From contig CAIXKG010000004.1 of the NCBI GenBank assembly GCA_903919985.1, forward strand, positions 1 to 64,000: a DNA stretch of 64,000 nt. The letters are read 5' to 3'. This document shows positions 7,906 through 20,099 of this stretch, in pieces (within the stretch, counting starts at the first letter, position 1; each line of letters opens with the position of its first letter). Origin of the DNA: an uncultured Opitutia bacterium. GTDB taxonomy: Bacteria; Verrucomicrobiota; Verrucomicrobiia; Opitutales; Opitutaceae. The notes under the pieces are model-generated. The model saw nothing but the letters and a program-made list of their open reading frames with translations, made no database searches and was not told where the DNA came from. A program made the position numbers and the translations under genes.

Positions 7906-8006
7906 GATGAAAATAGAAGAGGAGCCGCCGCGAAAATAAAAGCCTGAATCCAGTCGGGGTGCATCGGGACCTCGGAGCCCGATCTAAAATTGTCATGAAT
8001 CGGAGG

Positions 8007-8130
8007 TTTTTCCGGAGCCATTTGGGGTCGCGGCAGGCGTCTCTGCCGGTGGGCTTCGACGGCCTCGTTTTCGGCCGGCGGGGACGCCTGCCGCTACGTC
8101 GTGAGCGGCTACGCTTTGGGTCAAACCGCC
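8007..8130 (-). repeat. Copy A of a ~120-bp structured 3'-UTR repeat
   Basis: Read on the minus strand, directly after the tgt stop codon, this stretch runs from GGCGGTTTGACCCAAAGCG to a terminal GGAAAAA. Its core is an inverted repeat with 12-bp arms GCGGCAGGCGTC and GACGCCTGCCGC around a smaller GCCGG/CCGGC hairpin. Two further copies, at 17880-18003 and 19925-20046, share the whole layout: TTTxACCCAAAG entry, GTAGC, the two stems, then ACCCAAAACGGCC. Each begins within a few bases of a stop codon in the same orientation. No reading frame is conserved, so it acts as DNA or RNA, not protein. Confidence 0.8.
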
Positions 8131-9285
8131 CTAGGCCACACCCGCAATCCGGGCCGCGGCTCCGGCTTCGTAGCGCTCCACCCACGCCCGGTGCCACGTT
8201 GCGTAGTCTCCGGCTTCAAGGTGGACGCGCGCCTGACTCATCAGATCGAGGTAGAAATGCAGATTGTGCAAAGTGCAGAGCGTCGCCGCGAGCATCTCAC
8301 CGGAAACGGTGAGATGGCGGAGATAAGCCCGCGAAAAATTCCGACACGTGTAATTGTCGAGGCCTTCGACGATGGGCCGCGGATCGGCGCGATATTTTTC
8401 GTTCTTCAGATTGATCGGGCCATCGGGCGTGAAAACGAGCCCGTTGCGGGCAACGCGCGAGGGCAGCACGCAGTCGAACATGTCCACGCCGAGCGCGACC
8501 ATCTTCAACAACTGCGGCGGCGTCCCGAGTCCCATTGTATAACGCGGCTTGTCCGACGGCAGAAACGGCGTCGTCGCTCCCACCTGTTTCAACATTTCCG
8601 GCTCCGGTTCGCCGACGCTCACGCCGCCGACCGCGTAGCCGGGAAAATCCAGCGACGCCAGCGACTCCGCCGCTTCGCGCCGCAGATCGTCGAACGTCGA
8701 ACCTTGCACGATCGCAAAGACATGGTGGCCGTTCGCGAGAAATCCGCTGTCCGTGGCGATCTGTTTACACTGCCGCGCCCAGCGGAAACTCCGCGCCACG
8801 GCCGTCGCACACGCGTCGCGTTCACACGGCCACGGCGGGCACTCGTCGATCACCATCGCGATGTCGCTGCCGAGATTTTGCTGGATGCCCATGACCTCGC
8901 GCGGCCCGAGAAATAATTTCGCGCCGTCCAGATGCGATTGAAAGGCGACGCCGTCGTCCCGGATCTCCCGCAGCTTCGCCAGCGAGAAAACCTGAAACCC
9001 GCCGCTGTCCGTGAGAATAGGACCATCCCAGCCCATGAACGCGTGCAGCCCGCCCAACTCGCGCACGAGTTCAGAAGTGGGGCGCAGATTGAGATGGTAG
9101 GTGTTGCCCAAAATAATCTGCGCGCCGATTTCTCGCAGGTGCGCCGGGGTAAGCGACTTTACCGTACCCTGCGTGCCAACCGGCATGAAGATCGGCGTCT
9201 CGATCGTGCCATGTCTCGTGCGCAAACGTCCGCGCCGCGCGGCGGTGGCTGTATCAGTCGACAAAAGCTGGAAGTGATCGGGCAT
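8131..9285 (-). CDS. tgt: tRNA-guanine transglycosylase, with degenerate zinc site
   Basis: Tgt exchanges guanine-34 of GUN-anticodon tRNAs for preQ1 on the way to queuosine. The TIM-barrel landmarks are present: GTIETPIFMPVGTQGTVKSL at the N-terminus, the general-acid Asp in DSGGFQVFSL, GGVSVGEPEPEML and the nucleophile Asp in DCVLPSRVARNG. I chose the ATG at 9285 because homologues begin just before the RRGRL motif; in-frame ATGs at 9342 and 9300 are alternatives. Oddity: where the family has a CxCxxC zinc loop (PECDCYTC in E. coli), this protein reads GLDNYTC. Two of the four ligands are therefore Leu and Asn, while the third Cys and the distal His (LHNLHF) remain. Copy A of the 120-bp repeat starts right after its stop. 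Confidence 0.93.
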   Translation of the reverse strand: MPDHFQLLSTDTATAARRGRLRTRHGTIETPIFMPVGTQGTVKSLTPAHLREIGAQIILGNTYHLNLRPTSELVRELGGLHAFMGWDGPILTDSGGFQVFSLAKLREIRDDGVAFQSHLDGAKLFLGPREVMGIQQNLGSDIAMVIDECPPWPCERDACATAVARSFRWARQCKQIATDSGFLANGHHVFAIVQGSTFDDLRREAAESLASLDFPGYAVGGVSVGEPEPEMLKQVGATTPFLPSDKPRYTMGLGTPPQLLKMVALGVDMFDCVLPSRVARNGLVFTPDGPINLKNEKYRADPRPIVEGLDNYTCRNFSRAYLRHLTVSGEMLAATLCTLHNLHFYLDLMSQARVHLEAGDYATWHRAWVERYEAGAAARIAGVA

Positions 9286-9402
9286 CGGCGAAGCGACGAG
9301 CATCGACGATCGGCCGCCCAACATCCAATCTTGATTTTTCATCGGCACCGCCGCGCTTGACCCGGCGAGCCAATCAACAACCTATCTTGCCCCAAACCCG
9401 CC

Positions 9403-17749: not shown

Positions 17750-17879
17750 CGATGAGAGCGGCGAGTAGTGAGTAGCAAGTAGCGGACAGAAATCCAGCAA
17801 GGATCGCGCCCGCCAAGGTCGAGACGCTGCCTCCGGTCCCCGAGGTCGCGATGCCACCCTGAACGCCCGAGGGGATTAA

Positions 17880-18003
17880 ATTTTCCCGTGGCCGTTTTGG
17901 GTAGCGGCAGTCGTCTCTGCCAGCCGGGTTCGGCCTCCTCGTTTCGGCCGGCATGGACACCTGCCGCGGCCTGGTTAGCCGCTACGCTTTTGGTTGAACC
18001 CTA
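17880..18003 (-). repeat. Copy B of the ~120-bp structured 3'-UTR repeat
   Basis: Read on the minus strand right after the pdxJ stop, it runs from GGGTTCAACCAAAAGCGTAG to CGGCCACGGGAAAATT. The outer arms are GCGGCAGGTGTC and GACGACTGCCGC, which pair with one mismatch and one G-U. The inner part CATGCCGGCCGAAACGAGG aligns with copies A and C. It fills most of the gap between pdxJ and acpS. Confidence 0.8.
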
Positions 18004-18747
18004 CTAGCCGTTCATCCGGGCCCGCATTTCCCGCACCGCTTCCTCGATGCCGGTGAATAGGGCGCGACTGATGATGCTGTGGCCGATGTTGAGCTCGTGT
18101 AAATGGGGCAGCGTTCGCACCTCGGAAATGTTCACGTAATTGATCCCGTGGCCGGCATTGACCACCAGGCCGCGGTCGTGCGCGTGAACGCAACCGAGCC
18201 GGAGACGCTGGAATTCCGCCGCGCGCTGGGACCCGTAGTACGCGTTGGCGTAGGCTCCGGTATGAAGTTCGACCCACGGCGCGCGTACCGCCGCGGATGC
18301 CTCGATGGCGGCTTCATCGGGATCGATGAACAAACTCGTCACGATGCCGGCGGCCGTCATCGCGTCGACGCAGGCTCGAATTTTTTCCTTCTGCCCCACC
18401 ACGTTGAGCCCGCCCTCGGTCGTGACCTCTTCACGACTTTCGGGCACCAGGCAAACGGAGTCGGGTTTCAACTTCAGGGCGAAGTCGATCATCCAGGGCG
18501 TGCAGGCCATTTCCAAATTCAGCCGGGTAGAAATCGTTTCGCGCGTGCGCCAGACATCGCGCTCCTGAATGTGGCGCCGGTCCTCGCGCAGATGAATCGT
18601 GATCCCATCGGCGCCCGCGCGTTCGCAGAGCACGGCGAGAGTGACAGGATCGGGCTCGACCGCTTGGGCGACCGTCGCCGGAGCCTCGCGATAACGCGCC
18701 TGCCGTACGGTGGCACAATGGTCGATGTTGACGCCGAGAAGAAGCAT
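18004..18747 (-). CDS. pdxJ: Pyridoxine 5'-phosphate synthase PdxJ
   Basis: PdxJ condenses 1-deoxyxylulose 5-phosphate with 3-amino-2-oxopropyl phosphate to make pyridoxine 5'-phosphate (DXP-dependent B6 route). The 247-residue TIM barrel starts [17 protein letters not shown] and shows [56 protein letters not shown] and [10 protein letters not shown]. All are diagnostic. The ATG at 18747 is chosen over one 10 codons upstream because the family motif starts at once. The 120-bp repeat copy B separates it from acpS. Confidence 0.97.
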
Positions 18748-19207
18748 GGTGGAGGGAGAATAGACGGCAGAGGCCATAAATGGGCAGGATGAAATCCGAT
18801 CCCACCGCCACCCACCAGCAGCAGAATCGCCACCGGTCTCAATGGATCGGCGGCGACTTTTCGCGAACGGCGTTCAAATCGAACGCCGGCCGTGCGCCGC
18901 ACGACGGTTACGGCTGTTCGTAGATTTCAATCAGGCCCGCAATGGAGCTGGGACGTGGTGCCGCCGGTGGTGGCGAGATGGGGCAGAGCCGTAAACGGCG
19001 CCGGACTGACGGTCTGAGCCGACACGCTGAGTACGGTCAGGCCCACGCCTAGCGCTCGAAATGAAAACAGCCGAAGACGGCTACTTTTGCTGCGCAGAAG
19101 AAACGGGATCGATGGCGCTTTTCGCCCGGGAGCGGCCAAGGCGAGGATTGTTAAATGCCGCGATTTAATTTCCGCTCTGACCCAATTACCGATAAATTCC
19201 TGATAAC
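18748..19207 (-). pseudogene. 460-bp stretch without an intact gene; remnant of a secreted protein gene
   Basis: No convincing full gene is present. On the minus strand a 70-codon frame (19139 down to 18927) encodes a basic/hydrophobic signal-peptide-like leader (RLRLFSFRALGVGLTVLSVSA) and about 30 further residues. Right after it, in another frame, SSIAGLIEIYEQP followed by a stop resembles the C-terminal end of secreted Ig-like or autotransporter-type proteins. This suggests the two ends of a secreted protein joined by an internal deletion with a frameshift. The evidence is weak; the rest of the gap shows nothing I can name. Confidence 0.3.
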
Positions 19208-19924
19208 ATGGCGCCTGCCAAAACCAAACCAGAGAACCTGATCGTCAATATTGTGTGCAATATTGTGGTGCCGACATTGGTGCTGCAAAAATTGAGCGGA
19301 GATAACCGGCTCGGGCCGCTCTTGGCGCTGGTGGTGGCGCTGATATTCCCCTTGGGCTACGGCGCATACGATTTTTTGCGGCGGCGCCGGACCAATTTTA
19401 TTTCGGTGGTCGGTCTCCTGAGCGTGTTGCTGACCGGCGGACTCGGTTTGATGAAACTCGATGGCTTTTGGTTCGCGGTCAAAGACGGCGCCCTGCCCGC
19501 CCTCATCGGCATCGCCGTCCTGGCATCGATGAAAGCCAAGGAGCCGGTGGTTCACGAGTTGATCTACAACCCGCAGGTCATCGACGTGGATCGCGTCGAC
19601 GCCGCGCTCCGCGCCCGGGGTGCCCAGGCGGCCTTTGCCGAACTCATGCAAAAATCGAGCTATCTGATCGCAGCCGCGATGCTCATCAGCGGCGCGCTTA
19701 ATTTCAGTTTCGCCCGGTTGATCATCCGGAGCGCTCCCGGCACTGAGGCGTTCAACCAGGAACTGGCCAAGATGCACTGGGTCAGTCTGCTGGGGCTGTC
19801 GCTGCCCTCGATGGCGATGATGATGTATGCGCTCTGGAAATTGCTGAAGGGACTCGAAGGCCTGAGTGGTTTGACGATGGATGAGATTCTCCGTCAGCCC
19901 CCCGAGAAGAAACCCGCCGCCTAA
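19208..19924 (+). CDS. VC0807-type multi-pass membrane protein
   Basis: This 238-residue inner-membrane protein resembles the uncharacterised VC0807 family, related in topology to intracellular-septation protein A. It has an N-terminal helix (LIVNIVCNIVVPTLVLQKL), a second helix with GPLLALVVALIFPLGYGAYDF followed by RRRRTNFISVVGLLSVLLTGG, a further pair around residues 155-180, and a last helix (WVSLLGLSLPSMAMMMYALW). The function is unknown. The start ATG at 19208 follows an AT-rich spacer. Copy C of the 120-bp repeat begins right at its stop codon. Confidence 0.8.
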   Translation: MAPAKTKPENLIVNIVCNIVVPTLVLQKLSGDNRLGPLLALVVALIFPLGYGAYDFLRRRRTNFISVVGLLSVLLTGGLGLMKLDGFWFAVKDGALPALIGIAVLASMKAKEPVVHELIYNPQVIDVDRVDAALRARGAQAAFAELMQKSSYLIAAAMLISGALNFSFARLIIRSAPGTEAFNQELAKMHWVSLLGLSLPSMAMMMYALWKLLKGLEGLSGLTMDEILRQPPEKKPAA

Positions 19925-20046
19925 GCAGTTTCACCCAAAGTGTCACCGCCAACGCCGTAGCAGCAGGCGTCCCTGCCGGCCGAAAAGAGGGCGCCGAACC
20001 CGGCAGGCCGAGACGCCTGCCGCGACCCAAAACGGCCAAGGAAAAA
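19925..20046 (+). repeat. Copy C of the ~120-bp structured 3'-UTR repeat
   Basis: Directly after the TAA of the VC0807-type gene the plus strand reads GCAGTTTCACCCAAAGTG, then arms GCAGCAGGCGTC and GACGCCTGCCGC. They enclose a perfect 8-bp inner hairpin CCTGCCGG/CCGGCAGG with a loop of about 20 bases. It ends ACCCAAAACGGCCAAGGAAA. Copies A and B have the same layout. It also lies downstream of the convergent gltA gene. Confidence 0.8.
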
Positions 20047-20099
20047 CTCAAACCGCCCCAGCTAAATCGAGCCGCGACGCGACCTCAGTCGCTCCGCCC

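Follow-up and report, generated by a model that had tools for sequence, protein, structure and literature searches.

The repeats described here are very probably copies of a non-autonomous IS630-type MITE with two GTAG-type REPs, inverted relative to each other, as its interior. They were first noted in the window, the whole 64,000-nucleotide stretch of DNA that was analysed, which belongs to an Opitutaceae-type MAG (G000; 79 % complete, 213 contigs). Sequence comparisons point to this identity through a unit of ~142 bp at ~90 places in the genome, common terminal inverted repeats (TIRs), YTAR/TA borders, deletion derivatives and full IS630 elements of relatives that bear these ends; from them we infer that the element has been mobile. 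The first-pass annotation had proposed a family of doubly hairpinned repeats. The family stands and is far larger than the three copies it listed, whilst the TIRs, the TA target and the IS630 link had gone unseen.

All three noted repeats are present in the window and can be aligned end to end. Their length had been given as ~120 bp; the repeat is real, but these borders were only partly right, as each copy extends past them to a full unit of ~142 bp. A covariance model (R1) built from the alignment gave full-length matches down to E=5e-42 and recovered copy 1 at 7992..8134 (minus strand, 3′ end degraded; 132 bits, E=9.5e-33), copy 2 at 17866..18007 (minus strand; 142.6 bits, E=1.1e-35) and copy 3 at 19920..20061 (plus strand; 138.2 bits, E=1.8e-34), the first two being on the minus strand relative to the third. 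The unit was rightly called larger than a classic REP, for it holds two of them. As located from the sequence and alignment A2, REP 1 lies at 8072..8097 (minus; GTAGCGGCAGGCGTCCCCGCCGGCCG), 17945..17970 (minus) and 19957..19982 (plus; GTAGCAGCAGGCGTCCCTGCCGGCCG) in copies 1, 2 and 3, respectively, and the inverted REP 2 at 8025..8050 (plus), 17901..17927 (plus) and 20001..20026 (minus). The terminal TAG or TAA of every window copy (3/3) is also the stop codon of a neighbouring gene whose product aligns with its family profile as far as the end or close to it, a window-only control for this being small. At copy 1, the TAG at 8131..8133 (minus) ends tgt (8131-9348, minus; 365/368 positions of TIGR00430), and at copy 2 the TAG at 18004..18006 (minus) ends pdxJ (18004-18777, minus; pdxJ profile nearly whole), both genes being supported by the ORF list and coding score. 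The TAA at 19922..19924 (plus) at copy 3 ends a VC0807-family gene (19208-19924, plus) taken from the ORF list, which matches NF041646 to the profile end.

Across the 2.6-Mb genome, the 12-mer GCGGCAGGCGTC occurs 45+46 times, compared with 0+3 for its reversed control, which is well above chance. Alignment of ten full copies gave the consensus CTAG AGCGGTTTAACCAAAAGCGTAGCCGCTAACGAC GTAGCGGCAGGCGTCCCTGCCTGCCG AAACGAGGACGCCGAACC CGGCAGGCAGAGACGCCTGCCGCTAC CCAAAACGGCCACGGAAAAACTTAAACCGCT CTAG, bounded by TIRs of ~27-29 bp, TAGAGCGGTTTAA…GTAGCCGC (the far end also being written TTAAACCGCTCTA). The covariance model of this alignment returned 132 matches in the genome, many of which were one place found on both strands; an HMM search of the loci around them left 97 non-redundant matches, a few of these being two pieces of one copy, so that the family occupies ~90 places rather than only the three first noted. 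The element is multicopy and has no coding capacity, many copies are decayed, and sizes cluster near 142, 96-104 (~100) and 68-70 bp. The ~100-bp class retains one REP palindrome, and as we read the sequences its break would fall between two GGCAGGC stretches. A 68-bp copy (C147:24344-24411) retains the two ends almost back to back and has no REP, and it is therefore the ends, not the REPs, that define the unit. Several matches fall no more than a few dozen bases from the end of a contig (for example C18:32, C45:40, C88:16, C128:3 and C144:5), which would be expected of a repeat that breaks the assembly. Two tandem copies ~143 bp apart were also seen at a contig end (L014, G000:C28:3166-3419).

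TA is present at both borders of the element. The base preceding it is C or T in 112/129 ends of the host genome and in 82/88 ends from other genomes, which defines a YTAR target. Conservation is lower at the terminal TA than at the bases just inside it, a pattern that is consistent with target duplication yet limits the precision of the borders. A search across the family placed TAGAGCGGTTTAA in 32/252 Opitutaceae-family genomes, a few of which have several copies. Loci in relatives carry short units that share these ends (TAGAGCGGTTTAA-n6-GTGTAGCCG...CGGCTACA...TTTAAACCGCTCTA), and at one locus (L257) a transposase gene lies between such ends instead of a short interior. Read as two frames joined at an A-run, its product matches the IS630 family NF033545 with 173.9 bits (cutoff 100) and carries a DDE_3 domain (PF13358, E=1.6e-31). 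Its second frame has relatives in 42/252 family genomes, and three genomes of the same genus as the host (G003, G006 and G007) have an IS630 of this type. Most intact cases have inverted TAGAGCATTTTAAATAAAACTGTAGCC-like ends ~1.0 kb apart around DDE_3 ORFs, and among relatives the full IS630 elements that bear TAGAGCGGTTTAA...GTAGCC ends are seen most clearly at L257 and L286. The host MAG, 79 % complete in its 213 contigs, gave no match to this IS630 type at E<=1e-20. A parent IS in the same genome is usual for an IS630-derived MITE, though not strictly required. One locus in another MAG (L071) carries an own-type element (154 bits), and the element alone, out of this copy and its 8-kb flanks, matches the host genome; an empty-site search by way of these flanks thus found no pair of filled and empty alleles in the host genome. 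The contig concerned (G060:C46) bears two near-consensus own-type copies in a MAG labelled Verrucomicrobiales, and could be mis-binned or could reflect transfer between lineages.

The same ends enclose different inverted REP pairs in other genera. The interiors found were GTCATCGCGAGG...CTCGCAATGAC in G082, AAGTGTAACCTATTAGGTTACACTT in G085, GCGAGCGCCAGCGAG in G028, GGAGGGCGGACC in G143, GTAGGTCGGGGTTTATCCCCGAC in G145 and GGGCGTGCACGAGGCACGCCCCTAC in G135, with a similar one in G195. In a descriptive, tree-free comparison whose end assignment tolerated four mismatches, so that single calls are uncertain, the G145 REP lay inside the TAGAGCGG shell at 7/14 examined places, and the G135 REP was in the shell at 3/15 places and had no end nearby at 10/15. 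The G145 pair was also found in a unit of ~114 bp with other inverted ends, TGGGTCAGTTT...AAACTGACCCA, at 7/14 examined places in G142 and at three places in G145. Units of this second kind, with a GTAGGTCGGG REP pair, were observed at L365-L393 (G142) and at L382, L386 and L390 (G145). From these sequences, shells and interiors look exchangeable, and at least one REP pair appears also in an unrelated shell. We lean, by a modest measure, towards the broader proposal that IS630-type MITE shells of Opitutaceae repeatedly gain inverted REP pairs as swappable interiors, with one shell hosting many pairs and one pair entering more than one shell. The REP pair of the JANYCF and CAMBVX MAGs was considered as a second MITE shell and not counted, its shared flanks of ~170 bp having no clean inverted ends in an ungapped 12-mer test. 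The ~170-bp repeats of the CAMBVX MAG (L044, L060, L089 and L115) contain a hetero REP pair, one of GCGGCAGGC type and one of CCACAGGC type, and have conserved flanks that end in CAGCGAGGAACC on one side and are not cleanly inverted.

The interior by itself would suit another agent of movement. The core consists of two GTAG-headed palindromes in inverse orientation, the REP having the form GTAG-CGGCAGGC-gtccct-GCCTGCCG together with its inverse (alignments A2 and A3). GTAG heads are the hallmark of GTAG REPs (Nunvar 2010, PMC2817692; Di Nocera 2013, PMC3733652), in which Opitutus terrae is rich (Di Nocera 2013, PMC3733652). The repeat might accordingly be a BIME or REPIN moved by a REP-associated tyrosine transposase (RAYT), with the outermost ~40 bp at either end as a passenger. 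A scan of named genomes located the core in several MAGs of Opitutia, where the IS630 ends were mostly missing, and in the JACQFT locus L244 a RAYT-like gene (NF047646, E=5e-19, score 68.6, below the cutoff of 80) has own-type and sister-type (CCACAGGC) REPs on both its sides. Among RAYT loci in ten relatives, L244 was the only one flanked by the own-type REP. The host genome yielded no RAYT of the L244 kind, and the only Y1 transposase there, at L001, is of a different, ~325-aa type; it was rejected as the mover, for its flanks are GGGGTCAGGTTGCCC repeats and not these REPs. What bounds the unit are the conserved ends, which persist in the 68-bp copy, surround other interiors in other genera and are borne by full IS630 elements. 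As an account of the mobility of the 142-bp unit, movement by a RAYT is therefore largely refuted, and we regard it as highly improbable. Observed separately at L001 (G000:C75), the Y1 (IS200-like) transposase gene at 886-1863 is bounded by inverted repeats of the GGGGTCAGGTTGCCCATTTCCCC kind and has a further copy downstream, the repeats lying near 879-903, 1937-1968 and 2353-2442, and GGGGTCAG there agrees with the GGGGWSAS motif reported for TIRtrons. A 613-bp stretch outside the element is shared at 77.7 % identity between the JANYCF MAG and the host genome (L054:7245-7855 and L183:359-969).

Placement on stop codons extends beyond the window. Genome-wide, 25 element ends fall exactly on a stop codon, about a quarter of the copies, with other distances thinly spread and with 13 left and 12 right ends, indicating no orientation preference. 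A TAR in frame is a stop codon by definition, and with slightly less than an even chance the coincidence is a mere by-product of the YTAR target and the purging of intragenic insertions, involving no extra preference, an account that is compatible with the MITE identity. A looser control agrees with this, the share at copies (24/92) being no higher than at unoccupied YTAR sites (73/215). When a single gene caller served both sets, however, non-intragenic copies were at a stop in 23/92 cases and free YTAR sites outside genes in 21/208 (odds 3.0, p=0.0013), and in other genera 14 ends were in frame versus 5 out of frame. The coincidence is real, whilst an extra preference beyond the target is unproven. 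Since TA plus the element's own G remakes TAG, insertion at a stop should be harmless to the gene; termini of GTAG REPs likewise often provide TAG stops to adjacent ORFs (Di Nocera 2013, PMC3733652). The frequent start at stop codons, together with strong palindromes (fold z down to -3.9), might also suggest a selected structured RNA or a host-domesticated regulatory element of 3′ ends, such as a terminator or stabilizer. Stem pairs had been described as mostly kept, and 85.8 % of long-stem cells (86 % when rounded) are indeed paired in 33 near-complete copies, but shuffled copies reach 85.6 %, and long-stem covariation was 0.050 in both. Compensatory changes, which the first-pass annotation had proposed looking for, are thus essentially absent from the long stem, and pairing and covariation in the terminal repeats are likewise at shuffle level. 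Only the two local REP hairpins rise above it (89.0 % versus 87.3 % paired, a level reached by 1/500 shuffles), and this weak signal comes from one column pair per REP hairpin that switches between A-U and C-G. The pattern fits decaying DNA palindromes, and a maintained or conserved RNA structure is not supported. The orientation-neutral placement and the many decayed copies also speak against a regulatory RNA, as do the background counts of the core arm in genomes of the same genus. An Rfam scan gave no match to the element, only a tRNA, and promoter and terminator scans around the window copies were at chance level, with no terminator in or beside copies 1 and 2 and one weak 5-pair match inside copy 3, where counts over the region were at chance. 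We consider an RNA element scarcely credible.

For the MITE identity that we favour, the sequences suggest the following course. Acting in trans, an IS630 transposase would have bound to the ends and carried the unit into the TA of YTAR sites. Where such a site lay at the TAA or TAG stop of a gene, the first base of the unit would have rebuilt TAG (TA+G), leaving the gene intact and the copy tolerated. More tentatively, a RAYT/REP population may have been the source of the captured REP pair, perhaps through a template switch at the common GTAG(CC) as the excision of an IS was being repaired. By analogy with other REPs and MITEs, the hairpins may stabilize or process transcripts at mRNA 3′ ends.

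The element resembles, and by most of the features tested is, an IS630-type MITE, and its plan is close to that of RUP of S. pneumoniae (IS630-Spn1) and Correia/NEMIS of Neisseria. These resemble it in a 107-155-bp class, TA termini and ~100 copies (Delihas 2007, PMC2229807; Nunvar 2010, PMC2817692), as well as in TIRs common with an IS630 element, shown for RUP, and size classes arising by loss of internal blocks (PMC2229807; PMC2817692). Unlike them, the present element has an inverted GTAG REP pair as its interior, which varies by genus while the ends stay and is its distinguishing feature; it also has an Opitutaceae-type host and no parent IS detected in the host genome. With GTAG REPs, BIMEs and REPINs associated with RAYTs, including the Opitutus terrae families, it shares the GTAG head, the palindrome and inverted pairs (PMC3733652; Bertels & Rainey 2011, PMC3116915), termini that give TAG stops to neighbouring ORFs and, in a relative, the presence of this REP on the flanks of a RAYT-like gene. 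It differs from these in that the REP pair of the host genome sits within an IS630-type TIR shell with no RAYT found there, and in that its TAG stems from the IS630-type end and not from the GTAG of the REP. In Pseudomonas TIRtrons the TIRs are composite: degenerate GTAG units adjoin unrelated stem-loops, so that REP material is similarly fused to the inverted ends of another repeat (Di Nocera 2013, PMC3733652), but those TIRs flank tyrosine-transposase genes, whereas the present ends are of DDE (IS630) type. The open-access literature searched held no description of an IS630-type MITE combined with a REP pair.

MITEs and REPs are usually held to be separate classes, associated with unrelated transposases (DDE and tyrosine, respectively). 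A DDE-type shell holding palindromes of the tyrosine-transposase type, in pairs that differ by genus, offers a tractable data set on the origins of MITEs. The YTAR target and the TA+G end would give a simple account of how such elements settle on stop codons and leave genes unbroken. There is also practical value in knowing these repeats, as they appear to break assemblies of such MAGs. If shells do repeatedly gain REP pairs, the capture of REPs (template switching at a shared GTAG in gap repair being one possible mechanism) would be a general means of forming and renewing these MITEs.
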